DNA of 64,000 bases from contig NZ_KI271584.1 in the NCBI RefSeq assembly GCF_000469325.1, forward strand, positions 147,226 to 211,225, given 5' to 3'. The translations under genes were made by a program, and so were the position numbers. Each line of letters starts with the position of its first letter. Within the stretch, counting starts at the first letter, position 1. The stretch is from Schleiferilactobacillus shenzhenensis LY-73 (GTDB lineage: Bacteria; Bacillota; Bacilli; Lactobacillales; Lactobacillaceae). Under the pieces are notes generated by a model. It was given only the letters and a program-made list of their open reading frames with translations. It was not told where the DNA came from and made no database searches. Positions 47,332 to 54,939 of this stretch are shown here, piece after piece.

Positions 47332-47628
47332 TTATCCTTTCTGGGGGTGAGAAATAACGAGAAATTTGCTGCCCTCTTTCACCGCCAGAGGCGAAAGGCG
47401 ATGGTCAGCGATAAAGGCGGCCACCCAGGCAGGGTTATATTTGCTGTAGTCGCGCAGCGCCCAGCCGATGGCTTTTTGAATGAAAAATTCGTCGGTAGCA
47501 ACGTCGTACACGATAGCTTGGGTCAGCAGGCAGGTATCCACACGGTCTTTCTGCAACAACTGCAAAGTGATCGCCACCCGGCGCATCCAGAAATCCGGGT
47601 GCTGGTAGAAGAAGCCCCGCTCACGGTC
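47332..47628 (-). pseudogene. Remnant of an AlkD-like DNA alkylation repair gene
   Basis: The frame encodes the C-terminal part of an AlkD-type HEAT-repeat glycosylase: HPDFWMRRVAITLQLL, then DEFFIQKAIGWALRDYSK, then a short tail. Full-length members have about 220 residues; here about 99 codons remain and an in-frame TAG at 47629 closes the frame upstream. The N-terminal half is not found nearby. The remnant sits between the rhamnosidase gene and the Wadjet-like operon, as expected at an insertion or deletion boundary. Confidence 0.75.
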
Positions 47629-47810: not shown

Positions 47811-49310
47811 ATGGCCATCACCCTCGACCCGCACCTGCGCAATCTTCTCCTGGCCAGCCAGCTGGGGCTCAATCCCAACCACCCGCTGGCCGGCTGGACC
47901 GCGCTCACGATTCTTTACCACGACGCCGGGACCAGCGGCGAACCGATCACCCTGGATTACCTGGCGCGGAAGTACAACAACGATTACTTGGACACCGCCG
48001 GCGACGAGCAGCCCATTTCGAATGATGTCTTGAAGAAAGTCCTCGCGGTCCTCGCCAATCAGGCCGGGCTCGTGGAGGTCAGCCCGCGCAAGGTGCGGTC
48101 ACTGATGACCAGCGGCCGCTATCACATTTCTCTCTCCTACGTCTACCGTATTACCAGCAGCGGTATCGAGTACCGGAAGATGATGCAGCGGGTCGTGGAT
48201 GCAGAAAGTACGATCACGGCGAATACGAACCGGATCGACGAGTACGTCGCGCTGGTGCGGACACTGAGCCAGCCGGTGCGGTCGGGGACGGATACCAAGT
48301 TGTATAACAACTTCCAGAATATGCTGACGGCGTACGACGATGTGATGAAGGGCATGCACAAGCTGGAAGACGACCTGGATGAACTGGCCAATGACATTGC
48401 CTTCAACCACGGCAGCCAGGCGGCCGCTCACCTGCAGGCAATGCTGCGGGAAAAAGCCATTCCCGCCTATAACAAGATGCTGGACGAGGGCGCTCGGATC
48501 CAGCACTTGGCCGGGGATGCCGCGTTCATCGACCAGGTCGCCCATTCCCAGCAGGGCAGCGACGACCTGGACGCTGCCCGGGCCACGGACCAGCAAGATG
48601 TTCTGGTGCTCCGCTTCCAGCGCACCCGGACTTACGTGGCGGCGCAGTTGGAGCGGCTGGCGTTGAGCATGAATCCCAGTACGTCGGCCATCGACAGCAG
48701 CTTGGATTCGATTTACCTAGTGTTCCAGACCATCCAGAATGTTATCGGCATGCTCAGCCGGGAGTTTGAGCACGCCCGCACTCAGACCATCGATATCAAG
48801 GCGCTGTCCCGCCGGTTGGATGATCTGCTGACGCATTATCAGACGGTCCAGATCCCCCAGGCGCTGCCTCCCCATTTGCCCCAGGACCGCACGGTAGAAG
48901 ACCCGGCCGATTTGCTGGATGCGACCACGATGGGACCGGTGCGGTATGCTGTCCAGCCCACCACCCGCAAGGTGGCGACGGCCGCCGACAATCCGCCCAT
49001 CGTCGATGATGCCCCGGACGAACGCCAGCAGCACCAAGCCATCGCTGAGTTTACCCACTTGGTCATGACGGACGCGACCCATGGCGCCGTGGCCCATGAC
49101 CTCACTTTCCGCACCGTGCAGGCTCGGGACGAGGTGGTCAAGCTGTACGCGGCGACTTACTACCCGGTCGTGACGGGGTTTGCGCCGTTTGGCCGGCCCA
49201 TCAGTCAAGCGGGCAAGATTTCCGCCAGCAGGCCGGTCCGCTTACACGTCGCCGGCGAAACGTATGTCGCCGAACTGCCCAGCGGCTTCACGTTTTCGTT
49301 TTCTGAGTAA
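47811..49310 (+). CDS. jetA: JetA-like kleisin subunit of a Wadjet-type SMC complex
   Basis: This 499-residue protein is the first gene of a coupled operon. The N-terminal 130 residues look like a winged-helix region similar in organisation to MukF/JetA (VLAVLANQAGLVEVSP, SYVYRITSSGIEYRKMMQ). A long helical middle follows (residues about 130-340, heptad-like), then a Pro- and Asp-rich linker and a compact C-terminal domain. It should bridge the SMC heads and bind the MukE-like protein encoded next. ATG 47811 follows GAAAGGAG. Identification rests mainly on gene order and architecture, as kleisins diverge fast. Closest in size to the type II JetA group, but subtype is uncertain. Confidence 0.78.
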   Translation: MAITLDPHLRNLLLASQLGLNPNHPLAGWTALTILYHDAGTSGEPITLDYLARKYNNDYLDTAGDEQPISNDVLKKVLAVLANQAGLVEVSPRKVRSLMTSGRYHISLSYVYRITSSGIEYRKMMQRVVDAESTITANTNRIDEYVALVRTLSQPVRSGTDTKLYNNFQNMLTAYDDVMKGMHKLEDDLDELANDIAFNHGSQAAAHLQAMLREKAIPAYNKMLDEGARIQHLAGDAAFIDQVAHSQQGSDDLDAARATDQQDVLVLRFQRTRTYVAAQLERLALSMNPSTSAIDSSLDSIYLVFQTIQNVIGMLSREFEHARTQTIDIKALSRRLDDLLTHYQTVQIPQALPPHLPQDRTVEDPADLLDATTMGPVRYAVQPTTRKVATAADNPPIVDDAPDERQQHQAIAEFTHLVMTDATHGAVAHDLTFRTVQARDEVVKLYAATYYPVVTGFAPFGRPISQAGKISASRPVRLHVAGETYVAELPSGFTFSFSE

Positions 49311-49335
49311 GGGAAGAAAGGAGGTCTGCACCGCG

Positions 49336-50340
49336 ATGGCGAAACTGACCGAGAACGACCGCTTCATCATCAATGCACTGTTCGACCGCAGTGTCTTCAC
49401 CAGTTCTTACCAGCCTGGCATTACCCGCGCCAACCGGGCGGCGATCACGTCTCTGCAGACGCCCTCCGGCCAGCAGCGAGTCATTAATTACTGCAAGACT
49501 TTGCTGGGCCTGGCGCCGGAGAATTTCCAGGAGAACCTGCTGCTGCTCGTGGGCACAGATTACTTGCGGCCAGTAGCCGTCCACGTTTTGCTAGCGACCC
49601 TGAAGGCGATCATTAACGCGCCGGAATTGCAGGCTGGGTCCGGCGATCGCGCAGTGGCCGCTCAGACTGTGGTGCGCCAAGTGCACAGTGTCGTGGCAGA
49701 AGTGGATGAGAAAGAAATCCGCCGCCTCATCACCCGCTTGTTTGTGGACCGGTTCGGCCTCTTCACGCCCGACCAATTAGCCAGTACGCCCACCGATACA
49801 CCGGCAGAAGTGGCCGAGTACTGGGAAGTCAGTCCGGACTTTAACGTCTTTGCCCAAAACGTGGTCAATTATTTGGACCATGCCCGGCGCAACGAGGCGT
49901 TGACGGCGGTTCAGCGCGTGAACCGGGTGCTGCTGACCCAGACCTTTCTCAGCCCAGCAAGCGATCCGGCGGTGTGGCCGCTGCTTGCGGCGAACAAGAC
50001 AGCCATTGCCGACCTCTGGGCCCAAAGCGGGCGGTTCAACCTGGAAGTGGGTAATGGGTACGCCCTGTTATTGGATACGCAGCACACTCCCAGCGTCGCC
50101 ATGCCTTACCTGGTCGCTCTGGCGGTGGCCCACGAATTGGGGACCGGCGTCCAGGACAGCGGGCTGACGCAAAAAATCAAAGCGGCAGCCCACCGGCTGT
50201 ATCCGACGAACGCTGTCCCGCCCAGTGTGGTCAAGCAAGCCTTGCGGGACACCGGGTTGATCGAATTCCGCGACGGCTATGCCGTACCGACACCACTGGT
50301 CGCTCGTTTCACTGTGCAGCAAGGAGAAGACAAATCATGA
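49336..50340 (+). CDS. jetB: JetB-like MukE-type subunit
   Basis: The 334-residue, largely helical protein probably has two winged-helix domains (TENDRFIINALFDRSVF at the start and VKQALRDTGLIEFRDGYAV at the end). At this position in Wadjet and MukBEF-like operons lies the KITE/MukE subunit that binds the kleisin. It is longer than type I JetB and nearer the roughly 375-residue type II form. ATG 49336 (MAKLTENDR) follows GGAGGT. The stop overlaps the jetC start by 4 bp (ATGA). Confidence 0.75.
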   Translation: MAKLTENDRFIINALFDRSVFTSSYQPGITRANRAAITSLQTPSGQQRVINYCKTLLGLAPENFQENLLLLVGTDYLRPVAVHVLLATLKAIINAPELQAGSGDRAVAAQTVVRQVHSVVAEVDEKEIRRLITRLFVDRFGLFTPDQLASTPTDTPAEVAEYWEVSPDFNVFAQNVVNYLDHARRNEALTAVQRVNRVLLTQTFLSPASDPAVWPLLAANKTAIADLWAQSGRFNLEVGNGYALLLDTQHTPSVAMPYLVALAVAHELGTGVQDSGLTQKIKAAAHRLYPTNAVPPSVVKQALRDTGLIEFRDGYAVPTPLVARFTVQQGEDKS

Positions 50341-53300
50341 CCCTGAATCCGCAACTCGTGCCGGTGAGCTATCACCTGCGCCACTTCAACAAGTACAAGA
50401 CGCTGGACCTGCCTGCCGCGGCCAACGGCAACATGACGCTCATCGGCGAGAACGCCGTGGGCAAGACAACGCTGGCCAACTGTTTCTTCCCCATGCTGGT
50501 GGACGGGTCCATCGCTACGCCATCGTTCAACCCGGCGAAGAGTACCGACAAGGTCTCCCAGAGTGCCACGGCCCGCAACAGTCAGCGGGACACGCGGACC
50601 TTCGACAGTATGCTGCTGGGCTGGGGGCCGGGGGCGCTGAAGGTGCGCACTGGCTACAGCTATGTCCTGTTCCGCTCGGTCAGGCGCCAGGTGATCCTCG
50701 GGTTGGGCGCTCGCCGGGTCAGCGGCGAGACCCGCCAGCATACGTGGTGGTTCGTTGTGATCAGTGAAGACGTGACGGGGGCCCCACTCACCGTCGTGAC
50801 CACCGATGATGCGGGTCAGTGCCTAGAGGAGAAAGCCTTCCAGGAAGCAAACGCCGCGCTGGGCGACCAGCTGCAGGTGTTCACCACCGCGGTGGCCTAC
50901 CGGGATTACGTGGCGACCCATATTTACGGCTTCAGCGACGGCAAGACGCTGGGTCTGCTGGCGAACGACTACCGGCTGTTGGCGTCGCCGACCCTGACTT
51001 CGGGCAACGAGAAGTTTTCTCCCATCAAGGGGGCGCTGAAGAACGCCCAAGAGGGGATCGATCCGATGGTCATCGCGGCGGTGGCGAACAGTCAGCGGGA
51101 CGTGAATCAGTACCATGGGCTGCTGCGGCGCATTGACGACGCTCAACGCCGCTTGCGGCGGATGAAGAACGCCATTTTCTTAGCCAATCTGAATTATCTG
51201 GAGGCCACCCAGCTGCGGCCATACAACCAGGCGTATACCGCGAATGAACAGGCGAAGGAAGAAAAGACCCAGGCCGAGCAAGAGAAACGGCAGTACGAAA
51301 CGCAGCTGACCACTTTGACTGCAGCGAAAAACGAGGCCAGTGGTGCAGTGAAAGAGCTCCAGCAGGCTAACGCGGACCAGGGGACTGTAATCGAACGACG
51401 GCGCCAGTATGCGGATCAAATCAAGGCCGCCCAAGACAACCTGAGCCGGTTACTCAAGATCCTCGCCGATATTCAGGCCGCCCAAGCCCAGGCGGCCGAC
51501 TTAGCGACCGCCATTACGGCGCAAGAGACACAGGCAGCGCAATTGATTGACACCGAACTGACGCCCCGGAAAGTCCAGCTCATGGCCCGGTCCAGCCGGC
51601 TGCCGGGCCTGGCCCGGGTGATGGAGCGGGGTGCGTGGGCCGATATTCGGGACGGCTTGGCCCGTTATCTGCGCCAGATGGTGGCGGCCAAGGCCGAATA
51701 CGATCATTATGATACCCTGCTCGACCACTTGAGCCGGGATGTGGCCATTACCCACACCATGCAGGACCAGATGGGCCAGTCGATCGACCGCCATGTCCAG
51801 GGCTTCGCCAGCGGCCGGGCGCGGGAAGATTTGCAGGCCGACAACCAGGCCATCCACGAGGGCGGGGCCAGCCAGATGAGCAGCGAGTTCGCCCCGTTGC
51901 GGGCCAAGCAAGCGGCACTGCTCACCCAGACGCCGGACCTCAAGGTGTTTCTGACCGAGGGCGCGCTGCTGCCGCAATTGCAGAAAATCAGCCAGCAGAT
52001 CACCCCGGCGGTGGTGCGGCTGACGAAGATCACCCGGGAGAAAGAGACGTTACAGCAGCGGCAGGATAAGCTGCAGGGTCAAATCGCTGCTTGGCAGCAG
52101 ACTCTGCCGGCCGACTTCGACGCGGCCGCCGAGCGCCAGCAAATCGAGGACCTGCAGGCGGCTCGAGCGGCCTTGGTGATCGACACCAGCCTGCCCCAGC
52201 GGCTGGCGGCGGCCCAGGAGAAAGAAGCCAAACTCAGGGATCAAATCCAGCAATTCACCTATGAACGGGACGTGCGCACCGGCCGGATCGAGTCCCGGCA
52301 AGCTGATATTAAACGCTATACCGCCCAGCTCAAGACGCTGGGCGCCGATATTATGAGCAAGGTGACGACGCTCGCCCCGTATTTTCCCGAGGACGTGACC
52401 TTACCCGATATTGAAGCGTTACAAGCTTACATCCGCAGCCGCCGCAGCGACATTCGCGGGCACAGTTACGCTGATTTGGGGGGCCAAATTGGCCGGGCCA
52501 TTCACCACCACGACGGCAACGGCGAGGACCGCAGTGCGGTGGACGTACTCTTTGCTGAGCGCGATCACCCGGACATTGCCAGTGCCATGCGCCAGCAGCG
52601 GTCCATCGCCCGGAACGGCCTGACCGTGGTGGCCTTTGATTTGAACGGCGCCTTGGCGATCCTCACTGCCGACCATGCGGCCGTCACGAAGGCCTTGAAC
52701 CAGAGCAAGACGGGCAACGCGGTGGCGCTGCACACCTATCTGGTGGCCGCGGTCCAGCGGATCAGTGCCCAGTACGCCGTGATCACGGAATATAACCAGA
52801 TCCTGGCCGCCGGTGCCGCCCACCAGCATATCAAGCTGAAGGTCGCCCTCAGTCCCGCCGAAGGGGTTAAGCCGGCCGTCATCGACGAAGCCTGCGACCC
52901 CGAGTTAGATCAGCGGCCGCACCTGGCCGGGCTGATCAACCAGCGGCTGAACCAGCTGGCGAACAATACCGAAGTGGCCGATGACGAGGCGGCTTTCTTA
53001 ACGGAGGCCAACCGCCTGCTGGATACCCGCCAATGGTCCGACTTCAACGTCTATATTCGCCGGCGGGACAGTGCTGCGGACGACTTCGAATTGGTGGACG
53101 ACAAGTTCGTGCAGTCCGGCGGGTCGGGGGCAGAAAAGGCCCAGGCGATGGTCCTGCCCCTGCTGCTGGTCCCGAAGATGGTGCTGCAGCGGGCCAAGGC
53201 GGCGGATGCGCCGCACTTGGTGATGTTCGACGAATTCGCTGATAAGCTAGACCCGGAGACGGCCAAGGCCTTCGCCAAGACCATCGTCAACTTCGGCTTC

Positions 53301-53465
53301 AGCTTCATCGCCACCATGCCCAGCGGCGGCCAAAATAAGCTGCTGGCCGACGGTGTGGACAATATTGTGTGGGAAGTGGTCGGGGCCCCTGAGCAGGGTG
53401 ACGGCCGGTTCCACCTCAATCGGGTGGAGAAGAATATGACGTGGGCAGCCGGCGCGACCGCATGA
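50337..53465 (+). CDS. jetC: JetC-like SMC ATPase
   Basis: The 1042-residue SMC-type ATPase has Walker A GENAVGKT at residues 37-44. A predicted coiled coil covers roughly 265-420 and 555-690. The ABC signature SGGSGAEKAQA is near residue 927 and Walker B VMFDEFADKLD near 962, with both acidic residues. It should form the motor that extrudes plasmid DNA and presents it for cleavage. It is shorter than most JetC or MukB proteins, which implies shorter arms. It overlaps jetB and jetD by 4 bp each. The N-terminus is not the usual MukB-type opening. Confidence 0.9.
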   Translation: MTLNPQLVPVSYHLRHFNKYKTLDLPAAANGNMTLIGENAVGKTTLANCFFPMLVDGSIATPSFNPAKSTDKVSQSATARNSQRDTRTFDSMLLGWGPGALKVRTGYSYVLFRSVRRQVILGLGARRVSGETRQHTWWFVVISEDVTGAPLTVVTTDDAGQCLEEKAFQEANAALGDQLQVFTTAVAYRDYVATHIYGFSDGKTLGLLANDYRLLASPTLTSGNEKFSPIKGALKNAQEGIDPMVIAAVANSQRDVNQYHGLLRRIDDAQRRLRRMKNAIFLANLNYLEATQLRPYNQAYTANEQAKEEKTQAEQEKRQYETQLTTLTAAKNEASGAVKELQQANADQGTVIERRRQYADQIKAAQDNLSRLLKILADIQAAQAQAADLATAITAQETQAAQLIDTELTPRKVQLMARSSRLPGLARVMERGAWADIRDGLARYLRQMVAAKAEYDHYDTLLDHLSRDVAITHTMQDQMGQSIDRHVQGFASGRAREDLQADNQAIHEGGASQMSSEFAPLRAKQAALLTQTPDLKVFLTEGALLPQLQKISQQITPAVVRLTKITREKETLQQRQDKLQGQIAAWQQTLPADFDAAAERQQIEDLQAARAALVIDTSLPQRLAAAQEKEAKLRDQIQQFTYERDVRTGRIESRQADIKRYTAQLKTLGADIMSKVTTLAPYFPEDVTLPDIEALQAYIRSRRSDIRGHSYADLGGQIGRAIHHHDGNGEDRSAVDVLFAERDHPDIASAMRQQRSIARNGLTVVAFDLNGALAILTADHAAVTKALNQSKTGNAVALHTYLVAAVQRISAQYAVITEYNQILAAGAAHQHIKLKVALSPAEGVKPAVIDEACDPELDQRPHLAGLINQRLNQLANNTEVADDEAAFLTEANRLLDTRQWSDFNVYIRRRDSAADDFELVDDKFVQSGGSGAEKAQAMVLPLLLVPKMVLQRAKAADAPHLVMFDEFADKLDPETAKAFAKTIVNFGFSFIATMPSGGQNKLLADGVDNIVWEVVGAPEQGDGRFHLNRVEKNMTWAAGATA

Positions 53466-54265
53466 GCCGCTACACCGATGCCTACGCTGCTGTCGGCCGC
53501 CATACCCCGCCGGCTAACGCTGCCGTACTGGACCCGCTTTTCGACCAGATTGCAGCCGGCCGCCAGCTGCCGCCCAGGGCCCAGCAAGCCGTCGCTCTGG
53601 GGTTGACCGCGCACGCGCTCAACGACCGCACCGCTGACCCGGCGCTGTTTGACTACTATCGCTGGGTCTTGACCCACTGCTTCCCGGCCGGCCAGCTGAA
53701 CGAACTGACCGCCCGGCTGATTGGGATGGCCTTCACCGCCGCTAACATTTTCCAGACCGACCTGCCCCAGCCGCTCACGCTGAATCCCTGGCAGGTTCCA
53801 GCCATGCTGGATTATCCGCTGGCGGCTGACCGCGCAGTGGTCATCGAGAATAACGGCGTCTTTGCGCTCTTACACCAAGACCATCCGGACTGGCCGCTGA
53901 TCCTCCAGTCGGGCAACGACTTCAATGCGACCTATGTACAGCTAATTCAGCGCCTGGAGGGGCGCGGTATGCAGTATGCGTACTTGGGCGATATCGACAG
54001 CGCCGGCATCCGCATGGCTGATACCTTCGCCGGCCTCCTGCAGCGGACTAGCGCGGCGGCAGTCGCTGCTCTCCAGACTCCCGCCGACGTCACCCGCTGG
54101 CTGACATTTTACGGCCGCCAGGATTCCCGGCGGACGAAGCCGCTGACGGTCCGGTACCCGGTTTTCCGAGAAGAAATGACGGCCATTGCGACGTTTGGCA
54201 AGTTTGTGGAACAAGAGCAGCTGATGGGGGAGTATGAAGCAAGGATTGGGCGGTGGCTCACATGA
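53462..54265 (+). CDS. jetD: JetD-like TOPRIM nuclease subunit
   Basis: The 267-residue protein has a C-terminal TOPRIM domain of the DUF2399/JetD kind. The catalytic Glu is in VVIENNGVFALL (residue 129) and the DxD pair is in LGDIDSAGIR (residues 177 and 179). In Wadjet this subunit nicks or cuts the extruded plasmid and is related to topoisomerase VI A. The first 115 residues are a short helical arm region; type I and II JetD proteins of 385 residues or more have a longer one. It overlaps jetC and the SAP-domain gene by ATGA, so stoichiometry is coupled. Confidence 0.85.
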   Translation: MSRYTDAYAAVGRHTPPANAAVLDPLFDQIAAGRQLPPRAQQAVALGLTAHALNDRTADPALFDYYRWVLTHCFPAGQLNELTARLIGMAFTAANIFQTDLPQPLTLNPWQVPAMLDYPLAADRAVVIENNGVFALLHQDHPDWPLILQSGNDFNATYVQLIQRLEGRGMQYAYLGDIDSAGIRMADTFAGLLQRTSAAAVAALQTPADVTRWLTFYGRQDSRRTKPLTVRYPVFREEMTAIATFGKFVEQEQLMGEYEARIGRWLT

Positions 54266-54939
54266 ATCGAAAACAATTAATTAATGGTCAGAGTAAACAG
54301 GAAGTGGTGAAGTTCTTTAGCCAGTACCACTACAAGACGGAATTGGCTGCGCTTTGCCGTGCCCATCACTTGCCGGCAATCGGAACCAAGGCAGAGTTGA
54401 ATGCCCGATTGCGGGGCGCCATGCTGGGGACAGCAAGCAACATGGCACCAACACCAACACCGACTGCGTCACGCGGCCGTGCCCAGGCCTTGACGGCGTT
54501 TGAGATTACGTTAGACACGCCCATCGCCGGCTCCGGGTTTCGGTTCAACGCGGCTGCTCGGGAATTTTTTGCGGCCTATTTTCACATCCGTCGGTTTGCG
54601 TATACCAAACCCATGGCCATCGTGAAACGGCAGGCACTGGCCGACCCGTCTCAGAGATTAACTGTGCGGGACTTGGTGACGGTCTACCAGCAAACGCAAG
54701 AGCCGGCCGCCAAAAAAGCCTTCCTCGCCAATAATGCTGAGGAAGGCACCTATGAGTGGAACCACTTTGTCCGGGATTTCTGTGCCGATCCAGCGACAGC
54801 GCAATACCAGAGCAAGCTAAAAGCGGCGGCCCTATTATGGCGCCAGGTGCGGCAGGGACATGGTGAAAAGCGGTATCGGCATGCACTGCTGGCTGACTAC
54901 AGCACTCTCCTGCGGCAATACCAGCCTCATCAAAAGTGA
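54262..54939 (+). CDS. SAP-domain protein coupled to the Wadjet-like operon
   Basis: This 225-residue protein is the fifth gene of the operon. Residues about 10-50 form a SAP-type DNA-binding module (TELAALCRAHHLPAIGTKAE, then LNARLRG). A Thr/Pro-rich linker and a C-terminal domain of about 150 residues with many aromatic and basic residues follow. Known Wadjet sets have four genes, so this may be an accessory DNA-recognition or regulatory subunit, or a passenger. The ATGA overlap with jetD argues for a functional link. Its stop overlaps the convergent membrane-protein gene by 10 bp. Confidence 0.7.
   Translation: MNRKQLINGQSKQEVVKFFSQYHYKTELAALCRAHHLPAIGTKAELNARLRGAMLGTASNMAPTPTPTASRGRAQALTAFEITLDTPIAGSGFRFNAAAREFFAAYFHIRRFAYTKPMAIVKRQALADPSQRLTVRDLVTVYQQTQEPAAKKAFLANNAEEGTYEWNHFVRDFCADPATAQYQSKLKAAALLWRQVRQGHGEKRYRHALLADYSTLLRQYQPHQK

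Follow-up and report, generated by a model that had tools for sequence, protein, structure and literature searches.

The four genes jetA, jetB, jetC and jetD of Schleiferilactobacillus shenzhenensis LY-73 very probably encode an SMC nuclease of the Wadjet kind, compact and divergent, whose lactobacillar clade is either the sister of type II Wadjet or lies just outside it, with the SAP-domain gene behind them having been acquired separately. Our analysis establishes the gene order, the homology of JetC and JetD, the intact catalytic residues, the predicted fold of JetD and the compactness of the set. In the window (the whole 64,000-nucleotide stretch of DNA that was analysed), five open reading frames occupy positions 47811-54939, all on the + strand, as first described (Table 1). 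An earlier note on this DNA had read them as four overlapping genes in a Wadjet-like layout followed by a SAP gene with an ATGA overlap. The layout stands, with an SMC ATPase and a Toprim JetD in one operon and profile comparisons in agreement, and so does the 4-bp overlap of jetD with the SAP gene on the same strand (54262-54265). Overlap among the four genes holds in part: 4-base ATGA overlaps are also present at the jetB/jetC and jetC/jetD junctions, whereas jetA and jetB are separated by a 25-base gap, with jetB starting at an ATG behind a GGAGG ribosome site. This set of reading frames is not due to chance, since its lengths and order are kept in ~30 relatives. Just upstream of jetA, on the - strand, an 84-aa reading frame (47335-47586) matches only positions 136-212 of the 213 in Pfam DNA_alkylation, so that just the C-terminal portion of such a repair enzyme is represented; it is probably a gene remnant.

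Table 1. Genes of the jet locus and its downstream neighbour, in window positions
Gene	Position	Strand	Length	Description
jetA-like	47811..49310	+	499 aa	Presumed kleisin; gene 1 of the conserved four-gene order
jetB-like	49336..50340	+	334 aa	Presumed KITE/MukE-like subunit; conserved position
jetC-like SMC ATPase	50337..53465	+	1042 aa	All three ATPase motifs intact (Walker A, signature, Walker B)
jetD-like nuclease	53462..54265	+	267 aa	N-terminal domain 1-118 and Toprim 119-267
SAP-domain protein	54262..54939	+	225 aa	Hitchhiking neighbour, outside the Wadjet set

JetC carries all the SMC motifs assigned to it in the earlier note, namely Walker A (GENAVGKTT, residues 37-45), the signature (SGGSG, 927-931) and Walker B (LVMFDEF, 961-967), and these are mostly invariant across 26 sequences. 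It matches the PADLOC model JetC2 (1.2e-21) and Pfam SbcC_Walker_B (3.9e-9). Profile-profile comparison with hhalign aligns it over its whole length with type II JetC (99.9%; 5.6e-32 over 975 columns), and this alignment places the residues that it is short of in the arm region, between positions 343 and 450. At E <= 0.001, the sole PDB structure retrieved by the JetC profile is the 1371-aa JetC of 9qe0/9qe1 (1.1e-15).

JetD is likewise recognizable, matching PADLOC JetD2 (1.6e-10), the type II JetD profile (hhalign, 8.4e-17) and, above their cut-offs, Pfam DUF2399 and JetD_C. The Toprim residues proposed in the earlier note (E129, D177 and D179) are indeed invariant, in 29 of 29 sequences. 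Its AlphaFold2 model (mean pLDDT 92.7, pTM 0.87) predicts an N-terminal domain followed by Toprim, as in topoisomerase VI-A, Spo11 and JetD; the best PDB match of this model in Foldseek is topoisomerase VI-A, with Spo11 and Pseudomonas aeruginosa JetD (7til) next, at probabilities of 0.98-1.00 and modest TM-scores of 0.36-0.49. The Toprim domain begins at about residue 119 rather than at ~270. Residues 1-118 gave no sequence or profile match in type II or type III JetD, and activation of the nuclease could differ given this N-terminal domain without a detectable counterpart. The predicted domain contains a tyrosine pair, Y65 and Y66, that is invariant in all 29 sequences; for comparison with the catalytic tyrosine of topoisomerase VI, Pfam TP6A_N finds no match in this genome.

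The two remaining subunits are far more divergent. JetA matches no PADLOC and no Pfam family above cut-off, and none of the PADLOC Jet profiles matches JetA in any of the 28 clade members; against the type II JetA profile it gives a weak full-length match (hhalign score 31.4, 0.0063, 448 columns). JetB matches JetB2 of PADLOC weakly in this genome (0.0018). Of the 28 clade members, at least 4 match JetB2 and at least 7 match JetB1; these hits too are weak, the best value among the relatives being 4.6e-6. The match of JetB to the type II JetB profile is weak as well (0.0034 over 146 columns, hhalign). Marginal as these values are, JetA and JetB each pick their type II counterpart as the best of four possible partners, with scores reached by none of 60 block-shuffled controls for either protein. 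From gene position and these marginal matches, JetA would take the kleisin role and JetB that of the KITE/MukE-like subunit. An HMM check of the proteins against Jet profiles, which the earlier note had proposed, thus comes out mixed, assigning JetC to JetC2 and JetD to JetD2 while leaving JetA unmatched and JetB weak.

To place the set among the Wadjet types, we assembled from the genomes searched one type I operon, 26 type II-like operons and 13 type III operons with the order D-A-B-C, the type labels of which rest on the PADLOC models that found them and on operon layout. Lengths of JetA/JetB/JetC/JetD (aa) are 499/334/1042/267 in the S. shenzhenensis set, compared with means of 501/394/1388/439 in type II and 517/251/1483/354 in type III, and with 502/202/1128/393 in type I (one locus, L235). 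Across the clade, JetC2 and JetD2 give the best E-values and match most members (26-29 members per subunit). In the S. shenzhenensis proteins, the NCBIfam models TIGR02680 and TIGR02679 score far below their cut-offs. Both the gene order A-B-C-D and the best-scoring models, JetC2 and JetD2, are those of type II, and in hhalign all four subunits are nearest type II, JetA and JetB marginally so. However, the type II models JetA2 and JetB2 do not extend this agreement to all four subunits, and the clade nests inside type II in neither the JetC head tree nor the JetD tree. The set shows neither the D-A-B-C order and ~1480-aa JetC of type III, nor the JetD1/JetC1 best matches and DUF4194 JetB of ~200 aa of type I.

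These affinities bear on whether the set is simply an ordinary type II Wadjet that has diverged and become shorter, a reading that shares with the data the nearest relationship of the four subunits, the gene order and the placing of type II as the sister group when JetC heads are compared in a tree, and that we regard as rather unlikely. In that tree the lactobacillar clade is monophyletic (bootstrap 96) on a stem of 1.84, and in a quick JetD tree (FastTree) it is again monophyletic (0.98) and outside type II, although the order of the three groups is weakly resolved. The JetC distance from type II (5.6e-32) is about that between type II and type III (3.3e-31), and the failure of the PADLOC JetA profiles across the 28 members also argues against plain type II membership. 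On our best reading of the sequences, the set would be a lineage that has diverged from type II Wadjet as its sister, or just outside it; since the trees are rooted with only one type I sequence as outgroup, we claim a separate lineage and leave its exact rank aside. The suggestion of a distinct lactobacillar subtype is thereby borne out: the set stands apart from types I-III, of which type II is the closest, in profile comparisons, in trees, in the sizes of its subunits and in its distribution. A bolder proposal, tentative and short of an even chance, is that the clade constitutes a fourth, compact Wadjet type, in which a topoisomerase VI-A-like JetD without the N-terminal arm, bearing instead its own N-terminal domain with the invariant Y65/Y66, is loaded or activated differently.

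A search of 401 Lactobacillaceae genomes with JetD found relatives in 58 genomes from 11 of 40 genera (~14%, or about one in seven sampled species). The order jetA-B-C-D is intact, with nearly constant sizes, in ~30 loci from many genera, with JetC of 1025-1068 aa and JetD mostly of 263-282 aa, counted from the earliest start. Decayed jet loci also occur among the relatives (e.g. L084, L076 and L086). In L084, from a genome of the same genus as the window (G021), only the end of jetC and a jetD fragment carrying a stop are left, and in L076 (genome G049) jetA is followed by one 512-aa reading frame that begins like jetB and ends as jetD, jetC having been lost. L086, L095 and L096 hold jetD-like genes without detectable jetA, jetB or jetC alongside, being either remnants or orphan nucleases. 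Beyond the family, in 399 genomes from the phylum and 298 from the order, JetD matches lie solely in open frames of 340-521 codons, mainly within conventional A-B-C-D operons with a JetC of 1350-1440 aa. Because these outside matches are long JetD frames, the short form appears restricted to Lactobacillaceae in this sample. Plasmid carriage is ruled out for the sample searched, with no JetC or JetD relative of the short form on 72,556 plasmids. The flanks of the operon do not correspond to those in the sibling species, and the jet operon and the SAP gene are therefore both accessory.

In Wadjet, two SMC motors paired as a JetABC dimer extrude DNA, and cutting by JetD follows once a small circle has been fully extruded (PMC10586767, PMC12647877). 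The conserved ATPase and Toprim sites of the present set fit this scheme, in which JetA, JetB and JetC would form a dimeric loop-extruding SMC motor, full extrusion of a small circular DNA would switch the motor to turning on the JetD Toprim nuclease, and activated JetD would cleave the plasmid. By homology, we infer DNA extrusion, cleavage and an anti-plasmid function, and the set is probably a nuclease that works by SMC loop extrusion and is directed at small circular DNA. The shorter SMC arm and the arm-less JetD suggest that docking and activation of the nuclease differ in detail. SMC complexes of this superfamily can also organize chromosomes (PMC10586767), and the complex might accordingly be a chromosome-organizing condensin (MksBEF-like), or might target phage DNA rather than plasmids. 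We consider such roles improbable, given a JetD-type Toprim with invariant catalytic residues in all intact loci and a patchy spread (58/401) with decayed copies, which suits defence over housekeeping.

The SAP-domain gene had been put forward as a new fifth Wadjet component. SAP domains are typically DNA-binding, and this property, together with the 4-base overlap with jetD in the same orientation, would make the protein a plausible supplier of DNA binding to the complex. We examined this idea from several sides, and it now seems highly improbable that the protein is a true fifth subunit. The protein matches Pfam SAP_new25 (PF18953; 1.6e-10, 40.8 bits against a cut-off of 26.3), as do 19 of its 19 relatives, and its fold gave no match outside the SAP domain itself. 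First, relatives of the gene occur in 82 of the 401 Lactobacillaceae genomes, widely without jet genes, and the survey of co-occurrence with jetD found both in 16 genomes where ~12 are expected (Fisher p = 0.16). Second, adjacency is confined to the S. shenzhenensis genome: in the other 15 double carriers the two genes are on different contigs or at least ~11 kb apart, and a SAP gene lies beside jetD in none of the 39 other jetD loci inspected. In those 39 loci the slot after jetD is filled by variable, unrelated genes (acetyltransferase-, SNF2- or regulator-like, or on the opposite strand, as judged by eye), and the neighbours of SAP genes elsewhere are equally mixed, including RNA methyltransferase, CAAX protease, alcohol dehydrogenase and nitroreductase genes. 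Third, SAP relatives are present on 16 plasmids, conjugative ones included. Lastly, the GC3 of the SAP gene (61.5%) is unlike that of the jet genes (73-81%). The coupling proposed in the earlier note is thus not upheld, the family being found mostly away from jet operons, an outcome that the note itself had named as speaking against it. The SAP gene is a separately acquired accessory gene that abuts jetD by chance and shares at most a transcript with it; the ATGA overlap is genuine in this genome, yet gives no sign of a conserved partnership. A co-transcribed, oddly placed SAP gene could nonetheless act in this one species.

Two further observations concern the origin of the SAP gene and the slot it occupies. 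On both Lactiplantibacillus plantarum plasmids inspected (L236, L237), the SAP relative stands directly before a recombinase gene; a phage origin was considered and rejected, since the gene matches nothing in PHROG and turns up in just one phage record. A GNAT gene behind jetD in Lacticaseibacillus (L070, L071, L076) was rejected as a conserved partner, because no other genus has it there; the ATGA overlap that it seems to show in L070 reflects an upstream start absent from its relatives.

Work on the mechanism of Wadjet has mostly dealt with type I, with one type II structure in addition. Only three Wadjet types are named in PMC10586767 and PMC12647877, and we found no fourth type in the open-licence literature that we searched. 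With DefenseFinder, Wadjet has been detected in 9.38% of 1344 genomes of lactic acid bacteria (PMC13304284), and members of the lineage described here may already have been flagged by other tools without being recognized as separate; the annotation libraries that we tried name its subunits poorly. A clade found in about a seventh of the sampled Lactobacillaceae species, whose SMC is smaller and whose nuclease is close to minimal, would offer a practical and instructive minimal system, and it may help to explain the resistance of some food and probiotic lactobacilli to transformation with small plasmids. The negative result for the SAP gene disposes of an attractive but mistaken candidate for a fifth subunit.

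Compared with known systems, the set is closest to type II Wadjet (JetABCD; TIGR02680/TIGR02679; the N. vireti complex, with JetC in PDB 9qe0/9qe1), with which it shares the order jetA-B-C-D, whole-length homology of JetC, a homologous JetD Toprim, and the length of JetA, the profile of which matches weakly from end to end. It differs from type II in forming a separate clade that PADLOC JetA profiles do not match, in a JetC ~350 residues shorter (1042 versus ~1390 aa) through loss in the middle (arm region), in a JetB ~60 residues shorter, and in a JetD ~170 residues shorter (267 versus ~440 aa), which is without the ~150 N-terminal residues of type II JetD and whose own N-terminal domain shows no recognizable similarity in sequence. 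With type III it shares an SMC and a related Toprim nuclease (hhalign 9.8e-9), in contrast to the order D-A-B-C of that type and its JetC of ~1480, JetB of ~250 and JetD of ~354 aa. Type I/MksBEFG likewise has the order A-B-C-D, and its SMC is rather short (1128 aa in L235, the single type I locus), although the JetC and JetD described here are far more distant from this type (hhalign 9e-4 and 1.5e-4), which has a JetB of ~200 aa and a 393-aa JetD with a long N-terminal part. Outside Wadjet, the predicted JetD fold, an N-terminal domain plus Toprim, finds its best Foldseek matches in the topoisomerase VI A subunit and Spo11, at an identity of 12-15%; unlike in these proteins, the Toprim of Wadjet is a nuclease inside an SMC complex.
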